Shown here piece after piece: positions 1,211-24,271 of a stretch of DNA of 59,389 nt. Source of the stretch: Pseudomonadota bacterium (GTDB lineage: Bacteria > Pseudomonadota > Alphaproteobacteria > Rhizobiales > JAKPQE01); contig JAKPQE010000181.1 in assembly GCA_029572955.1 (NCBI GenBank), positions 1-59,389 on the forward strand, read 5' to 3'. A model generated the notes under the pieces. The model saw only the letters and a program-made list of their open reading frames with translations, ran no database searches and was not told the origin of the DNA. The stretch's first letter is position 1; every line of letters starts with the position of its first letter. A program made the position numbers and the translations under genes.

Positions 1211-2740
1211 ATGATGGCGATTTTCGACTGGCATACAGCCTTCCGGCGACCGGGGCTTTGCAGTCCGGCGGCGGCATGTGCCGTGATTCTCCTCGGCGGC
1301 CTGTCGGTCGCGACGATGTCCGGCGCGGCGCGGGCGGCGACCATCGCCCCGTCCTCGGACAAGACCTACAACTGCGTCGTTGCGCTTTCCGGCGTCATCG
1401 AGAAGGGCGATGCGGCGCGCCTCGAGGCGGCGCTCGAACGGGTGCCGCCGGCCAATCCCTACGGCGACATGGTCGCCCGGCGCATCTGCCTCGACAGCCC
1501 CGGCGGCTCCTTCGCCGAGGCGATCCGCATGGCCAATGTCGTCTATTCGAAGTTCGGCACGGCGGTGCCGCGCGGCGCGACCTGCGAATCGGCCTGCTCG
1601 GTGGTCTTTCTCGCCGGCTCGATGTCGCCGGAGGACGATCGCGGCGTCATCGCCGATCGCATCATGCACCCGCTGGCGCGGCTCGGCTTCCACGCCCCCT
1701 CGCTGGTCGTGCCGGAGGGTCAGTACGACCAGACGGCGGTCAACAAGGCCTATACGGTGGCGGTCGGCGGCATCGGCCAGCTGATCGGCGTCTCGGGCTT
1801 CATCAAGCTGCCGACCACGCTCATTGCGGCGATGCTGGAGACGCCGCCGAACCAGATGATGCACATCGAGACGGTCGGTCAGGCGGCGCGCTGGCAGATC
1901 GCCGTGGCGCCGACGGTGGCGCCCGACAAGCTCTCCGATCTCGGCGTCATCAATGCCTGCAACAACTGGTACCAGTTCCAGACCGATACGATCAGCGCCA
2001 ACGGCTTCTTCGAGCCGAACAAGTCGTTCATCTCGGCGATGGAGCTGCCGAAGATCGAGCGCCAGGACGGCGAATTGCGCGCGACGCTGCCCGGCTTCGG
2101 CCAGGAGGCGGCCTACGCGTGCAATCTCTCCATGGCCATGGGGCCGGGCGGCAACGGGCCGAACTACTCCACCGGTTTCGTCTCGATCGGCGACGAGGTC
2201 GGCACCGAGCTCTTCGCCTACATGCTGTTCTCGCGCGATACGGCGATCGCGAGCCTTGCCCGGGCCGACGACGGCAAGCCGGAGACCGTCGCCTTCGAGG
2301 AGCGCAACAGCCCGTGGGTCGACGGCTCGCGCGGCGAGTGCTTCGTCTTTGCCGGCGCGGCGATGGCCGACCACGATCCTTGCGTGCTCGTCGGCAGTCG
2401 CAAGGTCACGGGCAAGAGCTTCAAGACGGTGAAGAGCTTCATCTGGCCGTCCGGCGGCAAGACGGTGGTGGTCGAGGAGGGCGCCTTCCCCGGCGATTAT
2501 GTCGACAAGCACACCGTCAACGGCGTGGCGACCGAGATGGAATATGGCGAGGCGACGTCGAGCGGCGAGCCGGTCGCCGAGGTGGCCGGGCCGCTCTGCG
2601 ATGCCGCCAGGGTAAAGCCTGGATATCGCTGCGATTTCTCCTGCTGGCCGAACAAGGAGACGGGAAAGCGCTTCTGCTTCCTCGACTATGCGATGTACGA
2701 TACGGCTCTCGAGAGGTGGGATCCGGCCAAGGCGGACTGA
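1211..2740 (+). CDS. Exported ClpP-fold protein (COG3904-like), first of module
   Basis: About 509 residues. An N-terminal signal peptide (hydrophobic stretch ending in GAARAA) sends it to the periplasm. Residues about 70-200 look like the ClpP/crotonase-fold domain of COG3904 'predicted periplasmic protein': LDSPGGSFAEA at 94, then CESAC with the candidate nucleophile Ser127 flanked by two cysteines, then LGFHAP with candidate His161. The remaining roughly 300 residues are not recognised and contain several further cysteines, including CDFSCW near the end. Start 1211 (ATGATG) follows AAAGGGGCGG and gives a clean signal peptide; an upstream in-frame ATG at 992 would add an implausible Arg-rich leader. 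The gene is followed at 2760 by an OmpA-domain gene and then by a second ClpP-fold gene, so the three probably form one operon. Protease activity is inferred from the Ser/His pair only. Confidence 0.75.
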   Translation: MMAIFDWHTAFRRPGLCSPAAACAVILLGGLSVATMSGAARAATIAPSSDKTYNCVVALSGVIEKGDAARLEAALERVPPANPYGDMVARRICLDSPGGSFAEAIRMANVVYSKFGTAVPRGATCESACSVVFLAGSMSPEDDRGVIADRIMHPLARLGFHAPSLVVPEGQYDQTAVNKAYTVAVGGIGQLIGVSGFIKLPTTLIAAMLETPPNQMMHIETVGQAARWQIAVAPTVAPDKLSDLGVINACNNWYQFQTDTISANGFFEPNKSFISAMELPKIERQDGELRATLPGFGQEAAYACNLSMAMGPGGNGPNYSTGFVSIGDEVGTELFAYMLFSRDTAIASLARADDGKPETVAFEERNSPWVDGSRGECFVFAGAAMADHDPCVLVGSRKVTGKSFKTVKSFIWPSGGKTVVVEEGAFPGDYVDKHTVNGVATEMEYGEATSSGEPVAEVAGPLCDAARVKPGYRCDFSCWPNKETGKRFCFLDYAMYDTALERWDPAKAD

Positions 2741-2759
2741 AGGCGCAAAGGGCATTCCG

Positions 2760-3425
2760 ATGAAACGTCTCCTGCTCGGCGCGGCGCTGGCGGCGATGGC
2801 CGTCCCGGCGCTCGCCCAGTCGACCATGACGCTCGACGATCTCGACCTGAAACCGAAGGCGCCGGTGGCGGCCAAGCCCGCCGGCAGCTCGAGCGAAATG
2901 GAGAAGTGCCTGCTCGACCAGGCCTCCTGCCAGAACGCCGAGTTCAAGTCTTCGGCGAGCTTCAGCGTCGACGACGTGGTCAATCTCGGCATCATCGACC
3001 GCGAGGAGGTGAAGCCGGCGGCGCTCGGCGAGGCCGGAATGGCCGGCGCCTCGGGCGGCGCGAGCGCAGCGATGACGCTGCCCTCGATCGATATGGAAAT
3101 CCTCTTCGACTACGATTCGGCGACGCTGAGGCCCGACCAGTACGCCAAGCTGGTGCAGCTCTCCGAGATCCTCAAAGGCGACAAGTTCTCCGCCTTCCGC
3201 TTCCTCTTCCTCGGCCATTCCGACGCCAAGGGCGATCCGGACTACAACCGCAACCTTTCACAGAAGCGGGCCGAGGCGGTCTCGGCCTTCGTCGAGGGGA
3301 TTTCCGGCCTTTCCGGCGGACGCCTCGCGGCAACCGGCCTCGGCGCGACCAAGCTGAAGGATGCCGGCGACCCCTTCGGCGCCCAGAACCGGCGGGTCCA
3401 GCTCGTCCTCATTCCGGTGAAGTGA
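2760..3425 (+). CDS. OmpA-domain periplasmic/outer-membrane protein
   Basis: About 221 residues. The signal peptide (MKRLLLGAALAAMAVPALAQ) is followed by about 90 residues of low-complexity linker with a KCLLDQASC cysteine pair, then an OmpA/MotB C-terminal peptidoglycan-binding domain from about residue 110: EILFDYDSATLRPDQ, GHSDAKGDPDYN and, at the end, NRRVQLVL. The Asp and Arg that bind diaminopimelate in this family are present (SDAKG and NRR). There is no N-terminal beta-barrel, so this is a peptidoglycan anchor rather than a porin. It lies 19 bp after the first ClpP-fold gene and 4 bp before the second, which suggests it tethers or organises them in the periplasm (inference). Confidence 0.85.
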   Translation: MKRLLLGAALAAMAVPALAQSTMTLDDLDLKPKAPVAAKPAGSSSEMEKCLLDQASCQNAEFKSSASFSVDDVVNLGIIDREEVKPAALGEAGMAGASGGASAAMTLPSIDMEILFDYDSATLRPDQYAKLVQLSEILKGDKFSAFRFLFLGHSDAKGDPDYNRNLSQKRAEAVSAFVEGISGLSGGRLAATGLGATKLKDAGDPFGAQNRRVQLVLIPVK

Positions 3426-3429
3426 TCCG

Positions 3430-4875
3430 ATGGCGTTTCTCGATCGACTTTCGCGCGTCGCGGTCCTCGCCGGCGCGGCGTTCCTCGCTTTCGCCCCGGC
3501 CGCCTCGGGCGCCGACATCACGTTCCGACCCGATCTCGTCGACCGGCTTTCGGCGCTGAAGCCGATCTATCCGGTGCAGGGGCCGGTCTCGGTGCTCGGC
3601 GACGATGCGCCCTTCACCAGCGATCCGGGCGACGGGCCGGGCTGGGTGTCGACCGACAGTCGCCGCCAGCAGCCGACGACGATCGTCGTCTCGGGTCAGA
3701 TCGCGAAGGGCGACGCCGACAAGCTGCGCCAGATGATCGAGACGGCGACCGGCTATATCGACGGCATCGTCTTCGACAGCCCCGGCGGCAACTTCCTCGA
3801 GGGCTTCCGCATCGCCGAGGCGGTGCGCTATTCGCTCGAGAGCCAGGATCCGAATGTCGGCGGCGTCTACGTGCTCGACGGCGAGGCCTGCCTTTCGGCC
3901 TGCGCCATCGCCTTTGCCCTGTCGGTCGATCTCGCCCATCCGGGCGTGCCGGACACGCGCTACATCGAGAACGGCGCGAGGGTCGGCTTCCACATGGGCC
4001 TGCTGCCGGCGGAAAAGGCCGACGAGGTCGGCCGCGTCGGCGACGTGCTCAATCTCTCCTACGACATCACCGGCGCCTTCAACCGGCTGCTCGTCGGCGG
4101 CGCCAACCCGCCGCGGCTGCTCGCGCGGGCGCTCGAACACCGCACGCCCGACAGCTTCTACATTCTCACCGGCGACGTCGTCGCCTGGTACATGGGCTTC
4201 ACGCCGGTGTCGGCCGGAATGCTCGCCAAGCCGGCACTGCTCTACGGCTTCGACCTCGACATCGCCGGCCGGCTCTGCCGCGCCTATTTGCAGGCCGGGC
4301 GGGCCTGGCGGGCCAGCGCCGAGGAAGAGTTCAGCTTCTTCTACACGCCGCCGGAGCGGTCCGGCAGCCTGCTGGCCGATTTCGCCGCGGCGGCGGGCAG
4401 CGAGCATGTCGCGCAGGCGAGCCATGGCGGCTTTTCCTGCCAGTACCGCCTCGGCGATGCCGACAAGGTGCGGATTTCGCTGTGGCGCGGCGACCGGCGC
4501 TGCACGAGCGGCCCGAACGACGACCCGGAAGCCTGGTGCGCGGCGGAAAAGCGCGGCACCAGCGTCGCCTCGCTCGGCTTCCTCGCCGACGCCCTCGGCT
4601 GCAGCGGCGGCAAGCTGACGCCGGGCAGCGACCCGGCCGATCCGAAGCGCACGGGAACGATCAAGCGCGAGGTCAACATGCGCGCCGAGCCATCGCTCCA
4701 GGGCGCGGTGCTGACCAGCCTGCCGGTCGGCACAGCGGCCGAGATCGCGGACTGCACCCTCGTCGATGGCGTGCAGGGCGTCTGGTACAAGGTCGCGGCC
4801 GGGTCGAAGACCGGCTGGGTCAGCGCCCGTTTCGTCCAGGAGCCGTACCCGCCGCTGCTGCCGCTCGGCGAGTGA
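3430..4875 (+). CDS. Exported ClpP-fold protein with C-terminal SH3b domain
   Basis: About 481 residues with a signal peptide ending near SGAD. The ClpP-like region parallels the first gene of the module: FDSPGGNFLEGFRIAEAV, then CLSAC with candidate Ser156, then VGFHMG with candidate His188. The Ser-to-His distance (32 residues) is close to that of the first paralogue (34), so the two are ancient duplicates or share a fold-specific spacing. A bacterial SH3 (SH3b) domain occupies about residues 408-476 (VNMRAEPS ... GWVSARFVQ), a fold that commonly binds cell-wall peptides. Only 4 bp separate it from the OmpA gene, so co-expression is near certain. Catalysis is unproven. Confidence 0.78.
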   Translation: MAFLDRLSRVAVLAGAAFLAFAPAASGADITFRPDLVDRLSALKPIYPVQGPVSVLGDDAPFTSDPGDGPGWVSTDSRRQQPTTIVVSGQIAKGDADKLRQMIETATGYIDGIVFDSPGGNFLEGFRIAEAVRYSLESQDPNVGGVYVLDGEACLSACAIAFALSVDLAHPGVPDTRYIENGARVGFHMGLLPAEKADEVGRVGDVLNLSYDITGAFNRLLVGGANPPRLLARALEHRTPDSFYILTGDVVAWYMGFTPVSAGMLAKPALLYGFDLDIAGRLCRAYLQAGRAWRASAEEEFSFFYTPPERSGSLLADFAAAAGSEHVAQASHGGFSCQYRLGDADKVRISLWRGDRRCTSGPNDDPEAWCAAEKRGTSVASLGFLADALGCSGGKLTPGSDPADPKRTGTIKREVNMRAEPSLQGAVLTSLPVGTAAEIADCTLVDGVQGVWYKVAAGSKTGWVSARFVQEPYPPLLPLGE

Positions 4876-4979: not shown

Positions 4980-5411
4980 ATGAAACACCTGCTGCTCGCC
5001 TTCGCCCTTCTCTGGCCGGCCGCCGCGATGGCCGAAACCCTGCCGGCGATGACCGTCTGGAAGAGCCCGACCTGCGGCTGCTGCGGCAACTGGGTGGCGC
5101 ATATGCGGGCCGCCGGGTTCAAGGTCGAGACGCGGGACGTCGAGGACATGGACATGGTGAAGACGCAGCTCGGCATGCCCGAGAAGTTGCAGTCCTGCCA
5201 CACCGCGACGATCGCCGGCTATCTCGTCGAGGGCCATGTGCCGGCGGCGGACGTCAAGCGGCTCTTGGCCGAAAAGCCGGCCGTGACGGGCCTTGCCGTG
5301 CCCGGCATGCCGAGCGGTTCGCCGGGCATGGAGAACGGCTACAAGGACCCCTATTCGGTCCTGTCGTTCGATCGCGACGGCGGCACGAAGGTGTTCAGCG
5401 ACCACCGCTGA
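4980..5411 (+). CDS. DUF411 periplasmic metal-binding protein
   Basis: About 143 residues: signal peptide (cleavage near AMAE) followed by a full DUF411 domain. The hallmark SPTCGCC motif gives Cys32, Cys34 and Cys35 in a thioredoxin-like strand-loop, and SCHTA gives Cys73-His74, with a further His86. Family members are found beside copper resistance and copper oxidase genes and bind metal; function is otherwise unsettled. The next copper-type genes in this window start about 4 kb away (TonB receptor and DUF2946), so a shared copper theme is possible but not direct operon linkage. The protein converges on the caspase-fold gene, with 38 bp between stops. Confidence 0.85.
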   Translation: MKHLLLAFALLWPAAAMAETLPAMTVWKSPTCGCCGNWVAHMRAAGFKVETRDVEDMDMVKTQLGMPEKLQSCHTATIAGYLVEGHVPAADVKRLLAEKPAVTGLAVPGMPSGSPGMENGYKDPYSVLSFDRDGGTKVFSDHR

Positions 5412-5449: not shown

Positions 5450-6694
5450 TCACTCGATGACGAAATCGGCGAAGCGGTAGGCGACGTCGCCGAAGCGCGG
5501 GGCCGAGAGGGTGCCGGCGAGTTCGCCGGCCGCGAGCTTGTCGGAAAGGGCGCGCAGCAGCTCGATCTTATCCTCCCTCTCGGCAAGACCGGCCGGCTCG
5601 CAGAAGAAGCCGATGCGGTTCTGCCCGCGCTCGTCCTGATCCTGGACGACGAGGCCGTAGCGCGAGCCCGGCGAGATCTCGTAGCGGTACTGGCCGTTGC
5701 CGAGGTCGACGGTCTTGAAGAACTGGGTCGGGATCGGCGTCGCCTTCGATGAGGGCGTCAGGTTGAGGAAGCTCGGGCTGCAGGAATGCGGCACGTCGGC
5801 GAGCACCGAGATTTCCTCGCCGGTCTTCACCTTGCCGGGATAGACGGCGAGCAGGGTCTTTGCCTCGGTGTCGACGGTCGGGGCCGCCGAGGTCTTCTTG
5901 AAATAGAACTCGGTCTGCATCTGCGAGAGCTGCTGCGGGCGCTGCTCGCCACGGGTCTCGTCCATGACGTCGCGGGTGACGCGCTTCATCAGCACCGAGA
6001 CCTCGGTGTCCGGCGTCTTGATGTGGCGGGCGAGGGCGCGGGCGAAGGGCGAGTTGCCCTCGGCGCCGTCCGAGGCGACGGAATTCGGCAACGTCGCGAA
6101 GGTGACCAGCATGTCGCCCTTGGTGCGCACGACGGCGAGGCCGCGCTTGACGTTGGCGGTGCGGCCGCCGGCGCTGGTGTCCTCCATCAGCGCCTCGGCG
6201 AACGGATTGTTGCGGCAGGCATCGAGGAAGACGAGGCTGATCGGCACCTGCTCGAGGGCCTCCATCAGGCTGTCGAGGGCGATCGTCTCGCGCTCGACGG
6301 CGGTCGGCGAGCGAAGGCTGGCGTCGACCGGGATGAGGAAATTGCGGCCGTCCTTCTGGATGCCGTGGCCGGCGAAATAGACCGCGGCGACGTCGAGGGT
6401 GCCGGCCTTTTTGGCGAGGTCGTCGAGCGCCTTGCCCATCGCCGCCTCGTCGAGGTCGTAGAGCGCGGCGACCTCGAAGCCCATCGCCTCGAAGGCGGCG
6501 GCGACGAGGCGGGCGTCGTTGCCGGCATTCGGCAACCGCCCGGCGGTCGCATAGGCCGAGTTGCCGACGACGAGAGCGAATCGCGTCTCGGCGGCGGCGG
6601 CCGGGGCGAGGCCGAGGACGAGGAACGCGAGAGCGGCGAGGAAGCGGATCGCGAGCGGCATCGGAGAGGGCCTCTTCATCGAAGTCGTTGGCAT
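5450..6694 (-). CDS. Exported caspase-fold (peptidase C14) protein
   Basis: About 414 residues. A Lys/Arg-containing signal peptide ends near PAAAAE, followed by a caspase p20-type domain: RFALVVGNSAY, LPNAGNDA, YFAGHGIQ with catalytic His110 and FLDACRNNPF with catalytic Cys160. Both residues of the dyad are intact, as is the downstream LVTFATLPNSVASDG region that forms the S1 pocket strand in orthocaspases. The C-terminal 150 residues are not recognised. An alternative start at 6679 (MKRPS) gives an equally good signal peptide and neither start has a clear ribosome site. Family knowledge: secreted bacterial caspase homologues cleave after Arg/Lys or Asp; substrate here unknown. It is divergent from the desaturase gene. 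Confidence 0.88.
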   Translation of the reverse strand: MPTTSMKRPSPMPLAIRFLAALAFLVLGLAPAAAAETRFALVVGNSAYATAGRLPNAGNDARLVAAAFEAMGFEVAALYDLDEAAMGKALDDLAKKAGTLDVAAVYFAGHGIQKDGRNFLIPVDASLRSPTAVERETIALDSLMEALEQVPISLVFLDACRNNPFAEALMEDTSAGGRTANVKRGLAVVRTKGDMLVTFATLPNSVASDGAEGNSPFARALARHIKTPDTEVSVLMKRVTRDVMDETRGEQRPQQLSQMQTEFYFKKTSAAPTVDTEAKTLLAVYPGKVKTGEEISVLADVPHSCSPSFLNLTPSSKATPIPTQFFKTVDLGNGQYRYEISPGSRYGLVVQDQDERGQNRIGFFCEPAGLAEREDKIELLRALSDKLAAGELAGTLSAPRFGDVAYRFADFVIE

Positions 6695-7981: not shown

Positions 7982-8953
7982 TTACCGGTTGCCCTTCAGG
8001 ATGTCGTTGATGGCGCCGGTATCGGCGCCGCCGGAGCCGCCGCTGCCGGGCACGCTGCTCGGGCCGGCGATATTGCCGGAAAAGCCGCCGGAGCCGTTGC
8101 CGCTCCAGCCGCCACCGCCGCTCGTGCCGGCGGGGCCGCTCACCGCGCCGATGTTGCCACCGCTTGATGCCCCGTCCGTCGCGGCGCCGGCGGTCGGCGG
8201 CGCGCTCGCGGCGAGCGCGACATCGGGGAAGGTCATCGCGGCATCGCCGACGATCTCCATGCTGTCGGCGACGAAGGCGTCGGCCATGGTGAAGCTCATC
8301 ATCTTGCCCTTGTTCGGGTTGCCGAAGCCCTGGTCGATGATGTGGGCGATGAAGGCCCTGGCGTCGTCGCGCGCCTCGGCGAGGCTGCGGTAGCCGCCGT
8401 CGTTCTTCGGCTTCATCCAGTGGGCGAGGAAGACGCGGAAATAGTGGTCGGCGATCTTGCCGACGACGAGGGTGTCGAAGCCGATATAGGCGCGCTTTTC
8501 GGCGGTCGTCTCGATGCCGATGGCACGCGGGAAGCTGACCTTGCCCTCCACCCGCAGCGTCTTGCAGCCGGTGACGATGACGAGCGCCGGCGCGCGGCCC
8601 TTGTCCTTCCAGGCGCGGATCATGTCGACGATGTAGATCTCGTCGCCATTGCCGACGACGAACTTGCCGGGATTGGCGTGGACGTTGAGATAGACGATGT
8701 CGGCCTCGAAGAAATTGCCGAGGAAGGACGCCGCGCCGCCGCCGGTGTCGATGGTCAGCGACTGGTCGGCAAAGATCGAGCCGAAGACCCGCACATAGTC
8801 TGGGTCGTTGAGCACGGTGACGGTCTCGCGGCCGGCATGCATGAAGACCTTGCGGCCGGTCGGACGGGTGGCCGCAACGGCGAAATCGAAGGGCAGGGCG
8901 AGGCCCAGCGCGACGAGCGCGCTCGACATCAGGAATTGGCGGCGGCTCGGCAT
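7982..8953 (-). CDS. Tat-exported protein, possible caspase/CHAT-like fold
   Basis: About 323 residues. The N-terminus (MPSRRQFLMSSALVALGLAL) is a twin-arginine signal with an SRRQFL box. The mature part contains ADIVYLNVHANPGKF with His92 and, 38 residues later, LVIVTGCKTL with Cys130. This 'hydrophobic strand-H ... hydrophobic strand-C' order resembles the His/Cys dyad of caspase, gingipain and CHAT proteases, where the paired motifs read roughly HG and SACET. The match is by pattern only. The last roughly 85 residues are a Gly/Ser/Ala-rich low-complexity tail ending in a short GAINDILKGNR. It lies downstream of the TonB-receptor gene on the same strand but beyond that gene's terminator, so it is probably separately transcribed. 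Confidence 0.6.
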   Translation of the reverse strand: MPSRRQFLMSSALVALGLALPFDFAVAATRPTGRKVFMHAGRETVTVLNDPDYVRVFGSIFADQSLTIDTGGGAASFLGNFFEADIVYLNVHANPGKFVVGNGDEIYIVDMIRAWKDKGRAPALVIVTGCKTLRVEGKVSFPRAIGIETTAEKRAYIGFDTLVVGKIADHYFRVFLAHWMKPKNDGGYRSLAEARDDARAFIAHIIDQGFGNPNKGKMMSFTMADAFVADSMEIVGDAAMTFPDVALAASAPPTAGAATDGASSGGNIGAVSGPAGTSGGGGWSGNGSGGFSGNIAGPSSVPGSGGSGGADTGAINDILKGNR

Positions 8954-9048
8954 GGCGGTCCCTCCCGGCTCTCGGCGTTGTCGAAAGGGTGGAACCGGCG
9001 CGGCGGTTTCCGCCGCTCGCGAGCGCGGTCGCGGGGACCTCGGGCGAC

Positions 9049-9080
9049 AAAAAAGCCCGCCCCGGCGTACCGGGGCGGGC
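9049..9080 (-). terminator. Rho-independent terminator of the copper TonB operon
   Basis: A perfect 11-bp stem, GCCCGCCCCGG paired with CCGGGGCGGGC (9055-9065 and 9070-9080), closes a CGTA loop and is followed on the minus strand by six Ts (A6 at 9049-9054). It lies 40 bp after the stop of the TonB-dependent receptor gene. Confidence 0.92.
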
Positions 9081-9119
9081 GTTGCGGCAGGAAGGCCGGC
9101 GCGGGGCGCGCCGAGGAGG

Positions 9120-11216
9120 TCAGAACCTCGCCGTGCCGCGGACGTAGAACGAGCGACCGGGCTCGTTGACGCGCACCCCGACCGGATCGGTGATGCTCTG
9201 CCGGTTCTGGTTGAGCGCGTAGGTCTCGTCGAACAGGTTGGTGACGCCCGCCGAGATCTGGAAGTTGTCGGTCGCATTGAGGCCGCCGAAGAGGTCGACG
9301 GTGGTCCAGGCGTCGGTCGGACCGGCGTCGACGCCGCTGCCGGTCGTCCGGTTGTCGTCGACACGGGTCTGCTCGGCCGCCGCATTGAGGCGCACGCCGG
9401 CGAACCACTTCAGCGTCTCGTAGGCGAGTTCGACCTTGCCGGTCAGCGGCGAGATCTGGGCGAGCGGAATGTTGTCCGTCTCGTTCTCGCCGTGGACGTA
9501 GGCGGCGCCGACGGTCAGCTTCCAGGCGTCGGTGATGCGGAACTTCGCTTCGGTCTCGAAGCCCATCAGGGTCGCGTCGATGTTGCGATAGATGGTGGCG
9601 TTGGGCTTGCCGAGGAGGCGGCCGGAGTCGCGCTGGATGTAGTCGGTCACCGAGTTGTAGTAGGCGGTGAAGGAGTAGTCGAACCGCTCCCTGGTGACCG
9701 AGAAGCCGACATCGACCTGGTGATGGGCTTCCGGATCGAGGTCCGGATTGCCGACCCAGCTCGCATCGCCGTCCGGGGCGCCGCCGAGATCGCTGTACAT
9801 GGCGATCCAGCGCTCGGTGGCATCGGCCGTGCGCATGGCGCGGCTGGCGCCGGCAAAGACCGAGACGCCGTCGAAGAGCTCGTGCTCGAGCCGGATGAGA
9901 CCGCTGATGTTGTTCTCGTCGGTGTCGTCGGCGACGGCACCGCCGTTGAACGCGGCGTACATCTTGTCCGGCGTGTTGAAGGCGAGCGGCACGGCCATGA
10001 GCGTGCCGGTGGCGTCCGGCGTGGCGTGCACGAAGGCGTAGCGCAGGCCGGCGACGAGCTTCGTCGTCTCGGCGAGCGGGATCGTCGCCTCACCGAAGAC
10101 CGAGGTCTCGGAGATCTGCGCGTCCGGCCAGATCACGCCCTGCAGGTTGCCGGCGGTGCGGTTGAAGCGATAGCCGTCCTTGTCGATCAGGCGGTGATCG
10201 ACGCCGAAGCGGATGTCGGCGCCCTTGACCTCGGCGTCGAAGGAGACCTTGCCGCCATAGGTGGTCGACTCGGTGATCGCCTCCATGCGGCGCGGGCCGG
10301 GGGTGCGCAGGGAGTAGTTGTCCATGATGTGGTCGGCGCGCGAGCCGTAGATGTTGTACTCGACGGCTTTCAGGGCACCCCAGGCGAGATCGGTGCGACC
10401 CTGCAGGCGCAGCGTCACGTTCTCGGTCGAGGGGGCGTCCATGTTGGCGCCGGCAAAGAGCGCGTCGTAGATGTTGTTGATCTCGCCGGTGAACGAGACG
10501 TAGCTGTCGATGTCGAAGGTGCGGGTCACCGACAGGCCGCCGCCATACTGCTTGAAGGACGAGCGCACGTCGTTGCCGTCGCCGTCCTCGTAGTTCTCGA
10601 CCGCGGTCGCCGAGGTGAAGCCACGCACGTTGCCCCACTCGTTGCCGACGGTCGCGTCGGCGAAGCCGTCCTTGCGGTAGCCGTTCGATTCGAAGCCGCC
10701 GCCGGTGCGCAGCGTGGCGTGCAGGCCGGGCTCGAAGGTCTGCGGCTCGCGCTTGAACTCGATGGTGCCGCCCGGGGCCGGCGGGCCCTGCATGACCGAC
10801 TGGTAGCCGCGGGTCACGATGACCGTGTCGTAGGTGTAGAGCTGCGTCGAGGAGCTCGGCGGGTCCATCCGGTTCGGGCAGCCGCCGAAGTGGAAGGCGC
10901 CGTCGTTGATGACGCTGATCTGGTTCTGGTCGAGGCCGCGGATCGCCGGCTCCATGCCGTGGCCGCCCATGCGGCCGACGGAGATGCCGGTGACGCTCTT
11001 GAGGAAGGTGCCGACGTCGCCCGAGCTCGGCGGCACGGTCGAGGCGAACGGGTCCTCGCTGCCGGCGGCCGGCGGCAGCGGCACGAGGCCGTAGATGTCG
11101 ATGCTCGGCAGCGTGACGCGGGCGTCGTCTTCGGCAAGGGCCGGGGTGGCGGCGATGAGAAGCGTGGTCAGCGAGATGGTGCCGAGCAGCGCGGTGCGGG
11201 TATGTCTGGCGGTCAT
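9120..11216 (-). CDS. TonB-dependent outer-membrane receptor, copper type
   Basis: About 698 residues: signal peptide, a possible TonB box near TLPSIDIYG (residues 35-43), plug domain and a 22-strand-type barrel ending in an aromatic residue (GTARF). In the plug, GMEPAIRGLDQNQISVINDG is followed by GGCPNRMDPP at 111-120, closely resembling the G-A-C-P-x-R-M-D-P-P segment of the OprC/NosA family of copper receptors (TIGR01778-type). That is the basis for calling copper rather than iron. The start at 11216 follows GGGGGGATC; a longer in-frame start at 11261 is less likely. A DUF2946 gene, often a copper-locus companion, lies 99 bp upstream, and exbB-exbD-exbD-tonB just before that, so the receptor and its energy source are encoded together. 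Confidence 0.88.
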   Translation of the reverse strand: MTARHTRTALLGTISLTTLLIAATPALAEDDARVTLPSIDIYGLVPLPPAAGSEDPFASTVPPSSGDVGTFLKSVTGISVGRMGGHGMEPAIRGLDQNQISVINDGAFHFGGCPNRMDPPSSSTQLYTYDTVIVTRGYQSVMQGPPAPGGTIEFKREPQTFEPGLHATLRTGGGFESNGYRKDGFADATVGNEWGNVRGFTSATAVENYEDGDGNDVRSSFKQYGGGLSVTRTFDIDSYVSFTGEINNIYDALFAGANMDAPSTENVTLRLQGRTDLAWGALKAVEYNIYGSRADHIMDNYSLRTPGPRRMEAITESTTYGGKVSFDAEVKGADIRFGVDHRLIDKDGYRFNRTAGNLQGVIWPDAQISETSVFGEATIPLAETTKLVAGLRYAFVHATPDATGTLMAVPLAFNTPDKMYAAFNGGAVADDTDENNISGLIRLEHELFDGVSVFAGASRAMRTADATERWIAMYSDLGGAPDGDASWVGNPDLDPEAHHQVDVGFSVTRERFDYSFTAYYNSVTDYIQRDSGRLLGKPNATIYRNIDATLMGFETEAKFRITDAWKLTVGAAYVHGENETDNIPLAQISPLTGKVELAYETLKWFAGVRLNAAAEQTRVDDNRTTGSGVDAGPTDAWTTVDLFGGLNATDNFQISAGVTNLFDETYALNQNRQSITDPVGVRVNEPGRSFYVRGTARF

Positions 11217-11315: not shown

Positions 11316-11780
11316 TCAGAGGGTCGGGGGCGCCCGTACGCCGGGCGTTCTGACGTATGGCGCGGCAAGGATCGCGACCACCGGCTCGACTAGCGGCTGG
11401 CGGTCGACAGGGCGGTCGAAGAGACCGTCCGGCAGGCCGCCGACATCGGCGACGACCTTGCCCGTGGCAACGACGCAAAGCAGACAACCCGCCGCATTCT
11501 GTGCGGCACGGGTTTCGGCATCGGGCGTTGCCGGGCTCCCTTCCTCGGCATTGGCGAGGGCGACGTAGCGGATACCGTCGACCGTGCACAGGGGCACGCG
11601 CAACATGTCGGTCGAGGCCGCTTCGGCGCTGCCGCTCGGCAGGCTCATGCCGAGCACCACGGCAAGCAGGAAGTGAGCGTAGATCTGGGCGGTGAAGAGC
11701 GTGAAGAGCGCCACGCGCAGACGCCTTGCCTGCGCGAGCCGGTAAAACACCGATCTCTGGAGCATGCGGCGGTTCAGCAC
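11316..11780 (-). CDS. DUF2946-type membrane-anchored Cys protein
   Basis: About 154 residues with one N-terminal membrane segment (about residues 22-48) and a hydrophilic part carrying LCTVDG (Cys65) and GCLLC (Cys99 and Cys102). The C-T-x-D-G plus later C-x-x-C layout fits DUF2946 proteins, which are usually short and sit beside TonB-dependent receptors or copper genes; their role is unknown, and metal binding by the three cysteines is an inference. The GTG at 11780 has a GGGAGTGAGGG stretch upstream; the ATG at 11766 has none, so GTG is preferred. It is first in a probable DUF2946-receptor transcription unit preceded by a structured 181-bp gap. Confidence 0.7.
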   Translation of the reverse strand: MLNRRMLQRSVFYRLAQARRLRVALFTLFTAQIYAHFLLAVVLGMSLPSGSAEAASTDMLRVPLCTVDGIRYVALANAEEGSPATPDAETRAAQNAAGCLLCVVATGKVVADVGGLPDGLFDRPVDRQPLVEPVVAILAAPYVRTPGVRAPPTL

Positions 11781-11852
11781 GCCCTCACTCCCACTCCGTC
11801 ACACGAACCCGAAAAGCTTGTTAACAACTCGGTAACATTTGAGAAAGAGGCG

Positions 11853-11919
11853 GCGACCAAGCATTCGGTCGCAGTCCCCATGGGGGCATTCCGGCTCGGC
11901 TTTCCCGTATGCGGGGAAA
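11853..11919 (-). promoter_or_regulatory. Structured leader/operator region of copper receptor unit
   Basis: Three inverted repeats are packed in 67 bases, in the order read on the minus strand: TTTCCC/GGGAAA (arms 11914-11919 and 11901-11906), CCCCATGGGG (a 10-bp perfect palindrome at 11876-11885) and GCGACC/GGTCGC (arms 11867-11872 and 11853-11858, 8-base loop). They lie about 75-140 bases before the DUF2946 start. They could be a folded 5' leader or protein-binding sites. A faint likeness to the cobalamin-riboswitch core exists, but its signature downstream box is missing. Confidence 0.4.
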
Positions 11920-11961
11920 ACTGATCGTGTGATCCGTAATATTTGGCGGCACACGCGGACA

Positions 11962-12783
11962 TCAGCGGAACCTGATCGGCAGGGTGAAGGTGATCTGCCG
12001 CGGCAGGCCCGGCGGGATCGGCGGGAAGCCGCGCTTGACGGCGACGATGGCGGCGCGATCGAGATTGCGCGATCCGGAACTCTGGACGACGCTCGCCGAC
12101 GAGACGCTGCCCGAGGCGGTGACGGTGAAGCGCACGGTGACGGTGCCGCGGCCGCCGGGCGAGCGGGCCCGGCCGGCGATGCGCGAGCGCACCTTGCCGG
12201 AATAGTTCGACATCGCCGCCTTGCCGCCGGCCTCTCGGCTCGTGCCGCCACCGCCGGCGCCGGCCGAAGCGGCCGCCTTGCCGCCGCCGGCCCGCTTCTC
12301 GACCTTGCCGGACTTGGCGCGCGGTTCGGCCTTCGCCGCCTTCTTCTCCGGCTTCGGCTCCACCTTCTTCGGCGGTGCGGGTGGTTCGGGTTGCTCGATC
12401 GCGGCGTCCTTCGGCGTCTCGAGGGCGATGTCGGCGGGTTCCGGCGCCGGCGCCGGCGGGGCGGCGAGGTCCGGCGGCGGGGTCGTCGGGACGGTCGGCG
12501 GCGGTGGCACCGAGACGACCGGCTGCGGTTCCGGTTCGGGTTCGGGCTCGGGCTCCTGGGCCGGCGGCGGCGGCTCTTCGGCGGTGACGTCTTCCTCGGC
12601 GTCGCCCGGGCGGTCCTCGTCGGCGCCGGTCAGCTCGGAGAGCGAGCCGCCGACGGAGACGGAGACGCCGGCGGCGCGCTCCAGCATCGCTTCCTCGGCG
12701 GTGTCGACCCCGGCGAAGATCGCGGCGTGGGCGGCGACGGCGAAGCCGCCGGCAAAGAGCCATTCGCGAAGGGAGAAGGTCAT
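11962..12783 (-). CDS. tonB: TonB energy-transducing protein
   Basis: About 273 residues in the classical TonB layout: one N-terminal membrane helix (residues about 7-25), a long Pro/Glu then Lys/Ala-rich periplasmic spacer (repeated EPEPEP, PPPP, KKVEPKPEKK) and a C-terminal TonB domain from about residue 185 (YSGKVRSRI ... GTVTVRFTVTASGSVSSASV ... FPPIPPGLP). It transmits proton-motive force from ExbB/ExbD to outer-membrane receptors. The start overlaps the stop of the adjacent exbD by 4 bp (ATGA). The receptor encoded downstream is the likely partner. Confidence 0.93.
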   Translation of the reverse strand: MTFSLREWLFAGGFAVAAHAAIFAGVDTAEEAMLERAAGVSVSVGGSLSELTGADEDRPGDAEEDVTAEEPPPPAQEPEPEPEPEPQPVVSVPPPPTVPTTPPPDLAAPPAPAPEPADIALETPKDAAIEQPEPPAPPKKVEPKPEKKAAKAEPRAKSGKVEKRAGGGKAAASAGAGGGGTSREAGGKAAMSNYSGKVRSRIAGRARSPGGRGTVTVRFTVTASGSVSSASVVQSSGSRNLDRAAIVAVKRGFPPIPPGLPRQITFTLPIRFR

Positions 12784-13197: not shown

Positions 13198-13587
13198 TCA
13201 GCGCACGACCACGACCGAGGCGACCGGCGCGCGGCGGGCCGTCTCGACGGCGGTGGCGATGTCCTGAACGGTCGCCGCCTCGCCGGGCTGGATGGCGACG
13301 GTGGCGTCGTCGGCGCCGGTCGCGGCGGCGGCGAGGGCGGCCTCGAGGCCGTCGGCCGGCGTTTCGGCGCCGTCGAGCTCGAGCCGGCCCTCGCCGAGCA
13401 CCTTGAGGACGATGACGGTGCCGTGGGCGGTCGCGGTCGCGCCGGTCTTGGCCGCGGCGAGGTCGAGGCCGGAATATTTCAGGAAGGTCGAGGCCAGCAT
13501 GAAGAAGACGAGCAGCAGGAAGACGACGTCGATGAGCGGCGTCAGGCTGATGCTGCGCGATCTCTTGCGACCCGGATCAATCCGCAT
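13198..13587 (-). CDS. exbD: ExbD biopolymer transport protein
   Basis: About 129 residues with the canonical TPLIDVVFLLLVFFML helix; Asp20 is the proton-translocating residue. The periplasmic domain (VIVLKVLGEGRLELDG ... ATVQDIATAVETARR) is of normal ExbD length and pattern. It works with ExbB as the inner-membrane motor for TonB. Its start overlaps the end of exbB by 11 bp, and a second exbD follows, making a tandem pair. Confidence 0.93.
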   Translation of the reverse strand: MRIDPGRKRSRSISLTPLIDVVFLLLVFFMLASTFLKYSGLDLAAAKTGATATAHGTVIVLKVLGEGRLELDGAETPADGLEAALAAAATGADDATVAIQPGEAATVQDIATAVETARRAPVASVVVVR

Positions 13588-14320
13588 TGCCGACCGCCGT
13601 CAGGGTAGGCCGGCGCGCAGCTGGCTGGGGCTCGATGGTCCGCTCGCTGATGCGGCCGGTGAAGATGCCGGTCAGCTTGGTTTCCATGGCGAGGCGCTGG
13701 CGCTCGACGAGGCCCTCGAACCAGTAGAGGACGAGGGCGGCGGGAATGGCGATCGAAAGGCCGACGGCGGTGGTCAGGAGGGCGACCCAGATGCCGCCGG
13801 CGAGGATCGCCGGATCGGCCTCGGCGCCGGCCGACTGCAGCGAGCGGAAGGCGTCGATCATGCCGAGCACGGTGCCGAAAAGGCCGAGCAGCGGGGCGAC
13901 CTGCACGGTTGCCTCGATGCCGCGCAGATAGGCGCGCAGGCTGGCGAGTTCGCCAAGGGCGATGCGCTCGACGTCCTCGCGCACCCGGCCCTCGTCTTCC
14001 GGGGCGGCGGTGAGGCCGCGCATGGCATGGGCAAGAACCTTCAGCACCGGATTGCGGCGGCCCTCGACGAGGGCGAGGGCGGCGGCCTTGTCGCCGGCGA
14101 TCCAGAGCGCGCTCGCCCGTTCCGCCCGGCGGTTCGCGCCGAGGCCGAGGCGGGCATATTGCCAGAGCTTCAGGACGATGATGGTGAGGACGAAGACCGA
14201 AAGGACGAGCAGGGCCGCGACGATCGGGCCGCCCGCCGAAACGAGGCCGAGAAGATTGCCGATCGTCGCCTCCAGCCAGCCGCCGACCGGGTCGATGGCA
14301 TTGGCGCCGGTGTCTTCCAT
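13577..14320 (-). CDS. exbB: ExbB/MotA-TolQ family proton channel
   Basis: About 247 residues with three membrane helices: one near residues 20-45 and two in the C-terminal half (APLLGLFGTVLGMIDAF and GGIWVALLTTAVGLSIAIPA), which are the signature of the ExbB/TolQ channel. It forms the stator ring around ExbD and powers TonB. The ATG at 14320 follows GGGAGAGACGAC, whereas the frame runs further upstream as Arg-rich noncoding sequence. First gene of the exbB-exbD-exbD-tonB set; its upstream region (14321-14785) is gene-free apart from the next operon's end. Confidence 0.93.
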   Translation of the reverse strand: MEDTGANAIDPVGGWLEATIGNLLGLVSAGGPIVAALLVLSVFVLTIIVLKLWQYARLGLGANRRAERASALWIAGDKAAALALVEGRRNPVLKVLAHAMRGLTAAPEDEGRVREDVERIALGELASLRAYLRGIEATVQVAPLLGLFGTVLGMIDAFRSLQSAGAEADPAILAGGIWVALLTTAVGLSIAIPAALVLYWFEGLVERQRLAMETKLTGIFTGRISERTIEPQPAARRPTLTAVGNAD

Positions 14321-14785
14321 GTCGTCTCTCCCATCCGGCCGCGCCGCCGGGGCGCGGGGGTCAAAGCATGTCCGAGCGGAGCGTGGCAATACCGCGCGGG
14401 TGGCCCGATGCCACCATGCCGTCGAACGACCGTCGATGTCGATGAAGGGCGGCAAGACAAACCGCCGCGACGTCGCCGCGGCGAAGGAGGACCCGCCGGT
14501 CCGTCGCCCGAGGCCGCGATTTCCGGCCGGCGAGCGATGCCGACAGACAATCGCGGGCGCCGTGCGATGCGCCGCGTTCTGCCTGTCCTGGCGGGTCGGT
14601 CTTTGTCCTCGTCGTGTCTTGCCGGTCTCTCGTCGCCTCTCTCGTTCGCGTCGCGACGATCCGCCGTTTCCGGCCGGTCGAAGCGCGACGCCGAAGCGTG
14701 CCCGACACTTCACATGGCCGATCCGGGAGCGGCGGTCCTTGACCGTGATCAAAGACGAGTCGGTGCCGGCTGTCGGTTCGGGCGA
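14321..14785. other. Gene-free stretch upstream of exbB
   Basis: This 465-base gap lies between the exbB start and the end of the ABC exporter operon, both read on the minus strand. It must hold the exbB promoter and the exporter's transcription end. GC content is as high as in genes and open frames through it are Arg-rich shadows. I could not identify a T-tracted hairpin, a Fur-like box or an RNA gene. Confidence 0.4.
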
Positions 14786-15488
<703 letters not shown>

Positions 15489-15496
<8 letters not shown>

Positions 15497-16691
15497 CGAT
15501 CGCCTCCGCCGGATCGACCTTCAGCGCGGCGCGGATGGCGACGCTGCTGGCGAGGATGCAGATGACGACGACGATGACGAAGCCGCGCACCGAATCGGCG
15601 GGCTCGAGCAGGACGTATTTCGGAAAGACCGGAGCCCAGAAGGTGGCGGCGATCTTGCCGACGGCAAAGCCGATGAGGCCGAGGCCGACGGCCTGCTGCA
15701 TGATCATGCCGGCGATGGTGCGGTTGCGGGTGCCGATCAGCTTCAGCACCGCGATCTCGCGGATCTTGCCGAGGGTCAGCGTGTAGATGATGAAGGCGAT
15801 GATCGCGGCGCTGACGATGGCGAGGATGACGAGGAACATGCCGATCTGCTTCGACGAGGTGGCGATCAGCTTGCCGATCAGGATCTCCTCCATCTGGGCG
15901 CGGGTATAGACCTGCAGGCGCTTCCAGCGGCGGATCGGCTCGGCGACTTCCTCGGGCAGGGCGCCCGCGCGGATCCGCACGAGGACGGCGTTGACGTAAG
16001 GATTGGTGCTTTGCGAGGCGATCACCGCGTCGAGCAGGTCGGGCACGCCGGGCCGGGCGAAGGCCGGATTGGCGCCGGTGCGGCGGCGCTGCTCGACGAT
16101 GGCGTCGTTGTCCTTGAGGAACTGGGCCTCCTGGGCATCGCGCAGCGGCACGAAGACCATCGGGTCGCCGCTCGAGGAGACCATGCGGCGGGTGAGCCCG
16201 ACGACGGTGTAGAGATTGCGGCGGATGCGGATGCTGTCGCCGAGGCGGAAGCCGGTGGCGACGTCGGCGACGGCCTCGTAGTGGCTGCGGGTGATCTGGC
16301 GGCCGGCGACGAGGCGAGCCGGCCGACCCGGCGTGCCGGCGCCGCCGGGCGCGATGCCGACCACCATGGCGCGGACGTCGCGATTGCCCTGGCGGATCTG
16401 CATCGTCAGATAGGTGACGTTGGCGGCCGCGGCGACGCCGGGCATGGCGAGCACGGCGCGATAGGTGTCGTCGTTGATACTCGACGATTCGGCGTAGGGC
16501 CCGAGGGTGCCCTGCTGCACGACCCAGAGATCGGCGCCGCTGTTGTCGAGCAGCACGCGGGCGTCGTCGACCATGCCGCGATAGACGCCGGCCATGGTCA
16601 GGGTGACGCCGATGAGGAGGCCGAGCCCCATGCCGGTGAAGACGAACTTGCCCCAGGAGTGAAGGATGTCGCGGCCGGCGAGACTGATCAT
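15489..16691 (-). CDS. FtsX-fold ABC permease, DevC-like
   Basis: About 400 residues: one N-terminal membrane helix, a large periplasmic domain of about 230 residues, then three C-terminal helices with the FtsX-domain signature (KIREIAVLKLIGTRNRTI ... VDPAEAIGG). This is the four-helix mechanotransmission architecture of MacB/DevC. It overlaps the HlyD-like gene by 4 bp at its start and the ATPase gene by 8 bp at its end, so the three products are surely made together. Substrate is unknown; DevBCA systems export glycolipids and MacAB systems export toxins or antibiotics. Confidence 0.88.
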
Positions 16692-17863
16692 CGCGGCACT
16701 CCGGGCAGGTTCTCGACGACGGTCACGCGGGACCGGGCGGCGATGGCGCGCTGGCTGTAGAGAACGACGCGATCGTCGGCGGCAAGGCCGGACAGGATCT
16801 GGATGTGGCCGTCGAGGTCGGTCGCCCCGGTGCGCACCGGGGCAAAGCGCACGCCGTCGTCGGCGACGACCCAGACGCCGAGGGCGCCGTCGACGCGGCG
16901 GATGGCGGCTTCGGGCAGCACCGGCGTCGCGGCGAGGGCGGGGAGCGCAACGGTGATTTCGGCGAGCTCGCCGATCGGCGGCAGCGGGTCGGGGATCACA
17001 TCGAAGACGACCTTGGCGAGAAGCTCCTCGGTCACCTCGTCGGCGAGCGGCTCGATGCGCAGGACCTTGCCGGCAAGCGTCGTGCCGGCGCGCGAGCGCA
17101 GGACGATCGCGGCGCCGAGCCCGGGCACGAGGCCGGCCGAGCGCAACTGGTCGAAGCGGACGTCGAGCCAGAGGCTCGTCGGGTCGACGAGCTGCAGCAC
17201 CGCCTGGCCGGCGACGACGGTGGTGCCGGGGTCGGCTTCGCGGGCGACCACGAGGCCATCGACCGGGGCAACGAGGCGCATGTTGGCGCGCTGGCGCTGC
17301 AGGCCGTCGCGTTCGGCGACGGCGCGGGCGAGTTCCTTCTCGGCGCCTTCGAGATTGGCACGGGCGAGGGCAAGGCTCGCGCCGGCGACCTGGAAGTCCT
17401 GGCGGCGCGCCTCGGTGCCGGCGTCGCTGACGACGCCGCTCTTCGACAGGGCGTCGTAGCGGCGCGCCTGGGCTTCGGCGTATTCGGCGCGGGCGGTCGA
17501 GTCGGTGACCTGCGCCCGGGCGGCGGCGACGGCCGATTCAGCGCGGCCGAGGGCGGCGTTCGCCGCCTCGATGCGATCGTCGAGATCGACCGGGTCCATT
17601 TCGCCGAGCAGCGTGCCGGCGGCGACGCGGTCGCCGACATTGACGTCGACGCTGGCGACACGGCCGGCGACTGTCGGGCCGATGCGGTAGACGTAGCGCG
17701 CCTCGACGGTGCCGATACCGAAAAGCGCCGGCGACAGGGCGGCTTCGTTGACCGAGACGACGGTCACCGGGATCGGCGCCAGCGGGCCGGAGCGCAGCGC
17801 GACGAAGGCGAGAAGGCCGGCGAGCGGCACGAGGATCGCAAAGAGGGCAAGCTTGCGGGTCAT
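16688..17863 (-). CDS. HlyD/RND-type periplasmic adaptor
   Basis: About 391 residues with one N-terminal membrane anchor (LFAILVPLAGLLAFVAL) and a complete adaptor layout: lipoyl half (VAGRVASVDVNVGDRVAAGTLLGEMD), an alpha-helical coiled-coil hairpin rich in Ala/Arg/Glu (about residues 90-190), second lipoyl half (RLVAPVDGLVVAREADPG) and beta-barrel plus membrane-proximal domains. It bridges the FtsX-type permease to an outer-membrane duct. It starts 10 bp after the TetR stop. Confidence 0.9.
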   Translation of the reverse strand: MTRKLALFAILVPLAGLLAFVALRSGPLAPIPVTVVSVNEAALSPALFGIGTVEARYVYRIGPTVAGRVASVDVNVGDRVAAGTLLGEMDPVDLDDRIEAANAALGRAESAVAAARAQVTDSTARAEYAEAQARRYDALSKSGVVSDAGTEARRQDFQVAGASLALARANLEGAEKELARAVAERDGLQRQRANMRLVAPVDGLVVAREADPGTTVVAGQAVLQLVDPTSLWLDVRFDQLRSAGLVPGLGAAIVLRSRAGTTLAGKVLRIEPLADEVTEELLAKVVFDVIPDPLPPIGELAEITVALPALAATPVLPEAAIRRVDGALGVWVVADDGVRFAPVRTGATDLDGHIQILSGLAADDRVVLYSQRAIAARSRVTVVENLPGVPR

Positions 17864-18493: not shown

Positions 18494-18517
18494 AAGTAAG
18501 TGATTAATCACTTACTT
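18494..18517. promoter_or_regulatory. TetR operator, perfect 24-bp palindrome
   Basis: Arms AAGTAAGTGATT and AATCACTTACTT are exact reverse complements with no spacer. Its position 12 bp before the TetR start codon and its TAAGTGA core, typical of AcrR-type sites, make it the autoregulatory operator. Confidence 0.88.
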
Positions 18518-18753
18518 TTCCGACGATCCCGGCCCGAAGTCAAGCCGGGCAGGTGAAAAGGCGCGAAAGGCGGGCCCGGCAGGGCGTGAAGATCGGGTCG
18601 AGCCGGGAGAGAAGGCCCGGCGCGAGGGCGTGCGGGCGCGACGGATTGGCCGGGCGCGGCGGGGTGATCCGGCGCGAAGGAGCTGCCGCCGCAGGCGGTG
18701 GCGGCGGTGTGTCGCGAGGCGGGGTGTGGCGTCGATGCCAAACGGGCAGCGGG

Positions 18754-19461
18754 CTATTCCGGTTCGCCGATGGTGAGCGTGATCTCGCCGACGCCGTCGA
18801 TGCGACCTTCGAGGCGGTCGCCGGGGACGACCGGGCCGACGCCGGAGGGCGTGCCGGTATAGACGAGGTCGCCGGGGGCGAGGTGGTAGAAGCGCGACAG
18901 GTGGACGATGGTCTCGGCGACCGAGTTGATCATCTCGGCAAGGTCGCCCGACTGGCGCGTCTCGCCGTTGACCGAGAGCTCGATGCGGCCGGCGGTCGGG
19001 TGGCCGATCGCGGCGGCGGGCACGATTTCGGAGAGCACGGCGGCGTTCTCGAAGTCCTTGCCGAGGTCCCAGGGCCGGCGCTTGTCCTTGGCCTCGCCCT
19101 GCAGGTCGCGGCGGGTGAGGTCGAGGCCGCAGGCATAGCCGAAGACGAGATCGAGGGCTTTTTCGAGCGGCAGGCGGAAGCCGGCCGCGCCGATGGCGGC
19201 GACGAGCTCCATTTCGTGGTGGCAGTCGGCGGTTCCGGGCGGATAGGGGATGGTCGCGCCGGAGGCGACATAGGAAAAGGGCGACTTGGTGAAGTAGAAC
19301 GGGTCTTCCTTGACCGCAGTCGCGCCCATTTCGGCGGCGTGGGCGGCGTAGTTGCGGCCGACGCAGAAGATGCGATGGATGGGAAAGCCGCGCGAGCTGT
19401 CGCGCACGGGCACGAGCGGCAGCGGTCGTGGCGGAAAGAGTGGGTCGTCGGTGGCGCTCAT
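18754..19461 (-). CDS. Fumarylacetoacetate hydrolase family protein
   Basis: About 235 residues covering a full FAH catalytic domain. The motifs are IFCVGRNYAAHAAEMG at the start, metal-ligand Glu residues in HHEMELVAAIG, YACGLDLTRRDLQ and GDLVYTGTPSGVGPV. These are typical of single-domain FAHs such as fumarylpyruvate hydrolase or acylpyruvase, which cleave C-C bonds of 2,4-diketo acids with Mg2+. The ATG at 19461 is preferred; the open frame upstream to 19587 crosses a region with promoter-like AT-rich sequence. No aromatic catabolic neighbours are present to fix the substrate. Confidence 0.9.
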   Translation of the reverse strand: MSATDDPLFPPRPLPLVPVRDSSRGFPIHRIFCVGRNYAAHAAEMGATAVKEDPFYFTKSPFSYVASGATIPYPPGTADCHHEMELVAAIGAAGFRLPLEKALDLVFGYACGLDLTRRDLQGEAKDKRRPWDLGKDFENAAVLSEIVPAAAIGHPTAGRIELSVNGETRQSGDLAEMINSVAETIVHLSRFYHLAPGDLVYTGTPSGVGPVVPGDRLEGRIDGVGEITLTIGEPE

Positions 19462-19573
19462 CGGGGCCGTGCTCGTCGGTGACACTGGGCGTGCGGGACG
19501 GCGAGCCAAGCACGCCGCGGGCCGGCGGGCAACAGCGGAGTTGGCGACGGCTTTTCCGAAACCTTTCACGATA

Positions 19574-20939: not shown

Positions 20940-21296
20940 ATGTCGAAGATGATCAAGAACTTCGCCGATCATGCCGCGAACGAGCGGACGTTCCTGTCCT
21001 GGGTCCGCACGGCGATCGCCATCATCGGCTTCGGTATCGTCGTGGAGCGGATGGACCTGTTCGGCGGTCCGTCGTTGGTCGGCTCGACGACGACGGGGCT
21101 GCTGCTCGTCGGCGTCGGGATCGTGCTCCTGGCGGTCTCGGGCTATCGCTTCCTGGTGCTGCGCCGGCAGATCTCGGACGAGGCCGAGCGTCCGGCACCG
21201 CCGATCGAGGCGGACCTGCTGCTCGCCGTCGTGCTCGGCGTCCTCGCGCTGGCGGTCGCGATCTTCGCGCTGCACGTCGTCGGTCCGCGCGGCTGA
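20940..21296 (+). CDS. DUF202 small membrane protein
   Basis: About 118 residues with three membrane helices. The N-terminal FADHAANERTFLSWVRTAIA motif is the DUF202 (YidH-like) signature, in which the N-E-R-T-x-L-A/S-W-x-R-T block is highly conserved. Function is unknown. It follows lrgB at 136 bp with the palindromic element between them, so joint transcription is uncertain. Confidence 0.9.
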   Translation: MSKMIKNFADHAANERTFLSWVRTAIAIIGFGIVVERMDLFGGPSLVGSTTTGLLLVGVGIVLLAVSGYRFLVLRRQISDEAERPAPPIEADLLLAVVLGVLALAVAIFALHVVGPRG

Positions 21297-21333
21297 AGCC
21301 ACCGCGCGGCGGAAGGGCTCGGCTCCCGGCGGG

Positions 21334-24078: not shown

Positions 24079-24271
24079 AACGTTCCTGTTTCACTGATGC
24101 ATCGGCGCATGCTGCAGCGCAATATAAGGCGAGGTTATGACGATTCCGTCAATGGCCGTAAATTAGAAAAACCGAATTCGTCGGTATCCCTTGGTATCGG
24201 TCGACCGCAAAGCAAAGCCGCCGCACGCGGTCGGCGTGCGGCGGCTCGATTTTCGCGTCGAAAAAGGGGCG

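Follow-up and report, generated by a model that had tools for sequence, protein, structure and literature searches.

In a 59,389-nucleotide stretch of alphaproteobacterial DNA (contig JAKPQE010000181.1, order Rhizobiales; the whole stretch is here called the window), the genes between positions 1211 and 6694 point to an undescribed predicted protein-cutting module in the cell envelope. Judged from sequence, there is about an even chance that they belong to a rare alphaproteobacterial envelope module, proteolytic in nature, that consists of a caspase-fold peptidase (here casp1), a protein with an OmpA domain (OmpA1) and two or three ClpP-fold proteins with a serine-histidine pair (in the window, A and B). 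An earlier note on this DNA had described A, OmpA1 and B as a periplasmic assembly ending with B; that boundary is too narrow, and the casp1 gene is part of the set. The features, with protein lengths in amino acids (aa), are these:

1211..2740, + strand: A, ClpP-fold protein of 509 aa whose N-terminus is signal-like; Ser127, His161, Cys125/Cys129
1340..1918, + strand: part of A with the ClpP fold, roughly residues 44-236 (VIA-align range 46-236; hhalign)
2760..3425, + strand: OmpA1, peptidoglycan-binding-type protein with a signal-like N-terminus, 221 aa; OmpA domain at residues 115-205
3430..4875, + strand: B, ClpP-fold protein of 481 aa whose N-terminus is signal-like; Ser156, His188, Cys154/Cys158
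Residues 415-470 of B: SH3_3 domain (Pfam)
4980..5411, + strand: DUF411 protein, probable passenger
5450..6694, - strand: casp1, protein of 414 aa with the caspase fold (Peptidase_C14), whose N-terminus is signal-like; dyad of His110 and Cys160

A, OmpA1 and B are three intact open reading frames (ORFs), and their spacing is as first described, with OmpA1 lying 19 bp after A and 4 bp before B; position 1214 is as possible a start for A as 1211. All three look coding, because their third-position GC content (0.89-0.91) is above that of the three overlapping antisense ORFs tested (0.60-0.69). Signal peptides of the module proteins were assessed by eye only, and on that basis the proteins are predicted to be exported. 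The wall-binding parts named in the earlier note are both recovered by Pfam, as PF00691 (OmpA) in OmpA1 (residues 115-205, E 3.9e-14, 53.2 bits against a cut-off of 27.2) and as SH3_3 in B (residues 415-470, E 1.1e-10). At E<=1 Pfam gives nothing for A, its beta-rich C-terminal region included, and SH3 matches only for B. The two proteins are homologous (E 1.1e-7), and both may fall under the label COG3904, which the earlier note used for them.

Evidence for the module comes from other genomes. Besides the window, four loci were found: in the genome labelled G196, in Roseibium aggregatum IAM 12614, in Zongyanglinia huanghaiensis and in a Rhodobacteraceae metagenome-assembled genome (MAG). All four (4/4) have full-length relatives of casp1 and of OmpA1 at most 10 kb from ClpP-fold genes, in varying order. 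The locus of G196 was found by a ClpP-fold query and the other three by an OmpA1 query alone, when 84,980 species genomes were scanned with the pair of OmpA1 proteins and at least three further relatives appeared; when P0001 alone was the query, the genome scan gave no relative. These three OmpA1 relatives, which were left out of the OmpA tree, are 48-54% identical to the OmpA1 of the window and carry the same N-terminal segment, and beside them lie casp1 relatives that are 52-63% identical over 403-413 columns, with ClpP-fold genes within 10 kb. The R. aggregatum locus (taken as the same genome as G748 of the casp1 survey, and counted once) has three ClpP-fold genes, relatives of A and B among them, together with three caspases and two OmpA genes. 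In Z. huanghaiensis there are two ClpP-fold genes and two caspases, and the Rhodobacteraceae MAG has one caspase and two ClpP-fold genes found by profile, with a third, a cut ORF, recognised by eye only. Besides two ClpP-fold genes, the island of G196 holds the full-length casp1 and OmpA1 relatives, a second OmpA gene and three more caspases; Pfam finds 4 caspases in this genome, all of them within the island. The casp1 relative there is 54% identical over residues 18-413 of 414; the next-best match in that search, from G086, has E 7.4e-57 and extends over 10-274 only. The OmpA1 relative of G196 is 50% identical and groups with the OmpA1 of the window at 99/99 in the tree. Identities of casp1 and OmpA1 run roughly parallel among the loci: the Zongyanglinia-MAG pair shares 71% in casp1 and 65% in OmpA1, and the window and R. 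aggregatum share 63% and 54% (other OmpA1 pairs 53-54%).

Since gene orders differ among the loci, the linkage appears to have been kept through rearrangement. A simple A-OmpA-B operon was rejected as the conserved unit, as that order is seen only in the window; the clustering looked for in the earlier note is supported, as a grouping of casp1, OmpA1 and ClpP-fold genes that recurs in other genomes. A search for tRNA genes in four module loci found none. It could be argued that the linkage is incidental and that an island has gathered genes for exported proteins with no joint function. The set is indeed patchy. At E<=1e-75 a search for casp1 relatives gave 3 of 397 order genomes, the window's own among them, and 1 of 385 class genomes, again the window's own; at E<=1e-60 it gave one of the 20 genomes of the family of G196, namely G196 itself. 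This survey is a sample in which at most 4 candidates were scored in the genomes listed, and further modules are likely to exist. An apparently unrelated gene, that of the DUF411 protein, also lies among the members in the window, and a query with DUF411 drew no match in those other module loci to which it was applied. Yet relatives of casp1 and OmpA1 accompany ClpP-fold genes at every one of the four loci in differing orders, the genes of R. aggregatum and of the Rhodobacteraceae MAG overlap or nearly touch, and several paralogues of the same families sit within one island, so that we regard incidental linkage as improbable. The patchiness and rarity of the casp1 set would fit transfer or repeated loss.

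The caspase and OmpA members keep their characteristic residues throughout. The Peptidase_C14 match of casp1 has E 6e-39 and 134.5 bits against a curated cut-off of 21.4, its dyad is intact in the motifs GHG and DAC (His110/Cys160), and GHG and D[AS]C are kept in 11/11 caspases of the five modules. GH[ST]D is kept in all seven OmpA proteins of the same modules (7/7). In the window OmpA1 carries GHSD and LSQKRA, the motifs that hold the diaminopimelate-binding Asp and Arg of such domains. Known proteins with a PF00691 domain such as Pal, YiaD and YfiB share with OmpA1 the domain and GH[ST]D, and the window protein also has LSQKRA. Unlike them, the 5 module copies of OmpA1 have a common N-terminal segment with QST[MI]TL and DVVN[LI], outside the Pfam match. 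The SH3_3 domain is present both in B of the window and in B of R. aggregatum, peptidoglycan-binding matches below threshold occur in three C-type proteins, and some module ClpP-fold proteins have wall-binding or PAN C-terminal parts of their own. Taken together, the OmpA motif, the SH3 domain that B carries and these weak peptidoglycan-binding matches suggest that the module set may sit on peptidoglycan.

The ClpP fold that the earlier note had proposed for A and B is borne out by predicted structures. AlphaFold models were built from alignments of 23 (A) and 20 (B) sequences, and that of A has a mean predicted local distance difference test score (pLDDT) of 74.6. For both models all 50 matches listed by Foldseek are ClpP. 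The best VIA-align row is likewise ClpP for A (Z 15.1, 167 residues, 4.3 Å) and for B (Z 13.7, 160 residues, 4.7 Å); the rows are all ClpP, and are uninformative on the parts of the proteins outside the ClpP-fold domain. When a family profile of 46 members was compared by hhalign with six ClpP sequences of the same order, the probability was 95.6 and E 1.2e-8 (one comparison), and Ser127 and His161 of A fell on the catalytic Ser and His of ClpP. The profile required the motif C-x-S-x-C, for want of which 3 of 49 sequences were dropped. The Ser-His pairs given in the earlier note, Ser127/His161 and Ser156/His188, are exact, within C-E-S-A-C..G-F-H in A and C-L-S-A-C..G-F-H in B. The 49 aligned sequences used for conservation comprise 48 relatives and one Cys-less ClpP-type sequence; Ser is present in 46/48 relatives and His in 46/48, the two exceptions having lost both together, and 48/49 sequences retain GG in the SPGG turn. 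The profile finds 12 ClpP-fold genes in the five modules if the distant B of G196 is counted, and every one of them has Ser and His. The Ser-His pair within a predicted ClpP fold is thus well supported.

A complete ClpP triad in the family of A and B is not supported. The earlier note had called the proteins serine-protease-like, which stands as far as Ser and His occupy the catalytic positions of ClpP, but the name serine protease stays provisional because the ClpP Asp has no conserved counterpart. The family resembles the ClpP peptidase (PF00574) in fold, in the GG of the turn and in the positions of the catalytic Ser and His. It differs in the signal-like N-terminus (by eye), the extra C-terminal domains, the pair of cysteines around the nucleophile, the canonical Asp that is not conserved and the want of a PF00574 match: none was found at the window genes in a scan of the whole genome of the window (G000), nor for A and B in Pfam. 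One may accordingly ask if the module is real and its ClpP-fold proteins are no proteases, serving to bind, to scaffold or to act on another bond, with casp1 as the sole protease. The unconserved Asp, the loss of Ser and His in two relatives and the missing PF00574 match all speak for this. On the other side, Ser and His are kept together or lost together, both are present in every profile-found module copy, and the GG of the turn is nearly invariant. We consider a non-protease role unlikely, while giving it the largest share among the alternatives.

The cysteines flanking the nucleophile follow a different pattern. C-x-S-x-C arose by chance in 52/2000 shuffles of A and in 17/2000 of B, and because it is so rare in shuffles, chance is an unlikely reason for its presence at matching positions in both proteins. 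Both cysteines are kept in 48/48 relatives, including the two without Ser and His. From sequence, the most likely role of the pair in Cys-x-Ser-x-Cys is that of a structural disulfide, formed in the oxidising periplasm and giving the nucleophile turn its shape, as suggested by the persistence of the cysteines in relatives that lost Ser and His. The earlier note had proposed a redox switch: the disulfide would form reversibly across the nucleophile and in this way govern whether the protein is active. A Cys at -2 and at +2 in all 46 Ser-bearing relatives agrees with such a switch, as do the c-type cytochromes that adjoin two modules. However, the two relatives that lack Ser and His retain both cysteines, although a switch would have nothing to control there, and we hold the switch to be the least probable of the readings considered.

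Several observations weigh against a proteolytic module of this composition. The model of B has a mean pLDDT of 50.4 and is confident only at about residues 80-190 and the N-terminus, the remainder being poor. The column of the ClpP Asp is non-acidic in at least 45 of the 48 relatives, a count that depends on the alignment and allows for an acid elsewhere, and the relatives were recruited by motif-containing profiles, so that Cys-less ones may be missed. Most ClpP-fold relatives stand alone. G196 has a full-length B relative (36%) that lies off the island on the same contig, at 3,997,118 as compared with 581,237-587,360. In G034 and G049 an OmpA gene is paired with ClpP-fold genes, but the tree leaves their placement with OmpA1 unresolved. 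Near three plasmid copies of A relatives no caspase or OmpA is named, in gene tables that are incomplete.

How widely the ClpP-fold family occurs depends on the query and threshold. Relatives of A are found in 26 of 101 related genomes (own included), and the B query matches 16 of the 101, 6 of them only in the C-terminal SH3-bearing part. By profile, the family is present in 94/297 order genomes at E<=1e-8 and in 4/385 class genomes, own included, at E<=1e-20. Among 13 order genomes at E<=1e-20, 4 of 14 ClpP-fold clusters have an OmpA gene within 5 kb, where 0.26 would be expected; leaving out the window, the count is 3 of 13 with 0.23 expected (P 0.0013). Positions for this statistic were entered by hand and most genome sizes were rounded. 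A single OmpA clade for all clusters was considered and rejected, as the tree leaves G034 and G049 unresolved outside the pair formed by the window and G196. A plasmid-borne set was likewise set aside: 28 plasmid records have distant caspases, none covering 80% of the query at one place. Relatives of A occur in 10 plasmid records, of which 4 regions were inspected, one having no gene table. A phage origin was also dropped, with no viral contig relative of casp1 confirmed and no phage record with casp1.

Caspases and OmpA proteins have been placed together before. Asplund-Samuelsson et al. (2012, PMC3501461) counted OmpA in 14/217 operons with prokaryotic caspase homologues, and the window resembles these operons in having Peptidase_C14 and OmpA genes together. 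The difference lies in the ClpP-fold genes, which recur here with casp1 and OmpA1: no ClpP-fold partner is named in section 13 and further passages of that paper, and the main text has 0 occurrences of "Clp" at the start of a word. As far as those parts of the paper go, the new element is the combination with ClpP-fold proteins, the presence of OmpA in caspase operons being already known. No description of the combined set of caspase, OmpA and ClpP-fold proteins was found in the open-licence literature as judged by titles and the starts of abstracts, a body that leaves out most subscription papers and all bioRxiv preprints.

A caspase next to an envelope protein also brings to mind programmed death or anti-phage defence, in which the module would be triggered by wall damage or infection. 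Its patchy distribution would suit such a role, and in PADLOC a caspase model matches casp1 (E 3.8e-10) and ZorB models match OmpA1 (E 1.6e-7). These are generic domain matches, however: OmpA1 shares an OmpA/MotB-type domain with ZorB of Zorya, the ZorB models cover only part of the OmpA domain, and none of the 8 module proteins scanned matches a PADLOC model for another Zorya component (ZorA and effectors were not searched genome-wide). Nor does Pfam find a nuclease, a nucleoside triphosphatase switch or a toxin in those module genes that were scanned, and the R. aggregatum copy lies among sugar-acid and transport genes (partly by eye). We rate a death or defence module as improbable, on a par with incidental linkage.

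If the proteolytic envelope module is accepted, its parts would most likely work together as follows. OmpA1 and the SH3b or peptidoglycan-binding domains would hold the set on the wall, where the proteins may form a complex, and the conserved N-terminal segment of OmpA1 could dock partners. The two hydrolase classes would cut envelope proteins in a limited way and upon a trigger, with casp1 likely to start the proteolysis and the ClpP-fold proteins acting as its partners or serving as its targets. One could go further and imagine a wall-fixed periplasmic protease platform in which caspase-fold and ClpP-fold proteins act as one cascade, in some cases fed by a linked c-type cytochrome, which would make it the equivalent, in the envelope, of a signalling unit of cytochrome and caspase; this extension seems to us quite improbable, only slightly less so than the redox switch.

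It is worth describing the cytochrome genes and some other neighbourhoods in their own right. A c-type cytochrome with a C-terminal DUF4384 region adjoins the module in G196 (L119:309-3587, + strand) and in Zongyanglinia (L177:17794-20658, - strand), with 4 CxxCH motifs in the former and 3 in the latter, a cut copy. DUF4384 is over the Pfam cut-off in L119 and below it in L177, and the two cytochromes are 37% identical over 962 aligned columns. In the window's own genome (G000:C153, L149:6640-12105) the gene of a two-haem cytochrome, 8346-9302, lies between two caspase genes, and in G199:C93 (L160:5827-14590) a cytochrome relative with 2 CxxCH motifs lies about 4 kb from a caspase gene. In G006:C7 (L147:5330-19083) an OmpA gene and four caspase genes are packed into 14 kb, and the ClpP-fold profile found nothing in the 19.5-kb stretch around them. 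Two ClpP-fold genes flank a DUF1353-like gene (by eye) in G199:C115 (L118:5829-11994), near an integrase-like ORF (by eye). In G034 (L068:185-8818) two ClpP-fold genes and an OmpA gene stand in tandem, with a large ORF of TPR and CHAT-like type (by eye) about 2 kb away on the opposite strand. Elsewhere in the window, six long ORFs with no Pfam family over the cut-off at the E-values used are found at 7982-9385 (-), with a sub-threshold Tat signal match only, and at 11774-12763 (-), 13292-15565 (+), 15471-16760 (+), 18512-19513 (-) and 20971-24351 (+). ARAGORN places a tRNA-Ala (cgc) at 13285-13381 (+), overlapping the start of ORF 13292.

To our knowledge, many bacterial caspase homologues have neither a known partner nor a known substrate. 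According to the survey mentioned above, such homologues are particularly abundant in Alphaproteobacteria (PMC3501461). The recurring set described here names likely partners for a caspase, in the form of a wall anchor and of ClpP-fold hydrolases, and would make caspase function testable in the marine Roseibium aggregatum. It also provides a first context for a ClpP-fold family that has no Pfam match here.

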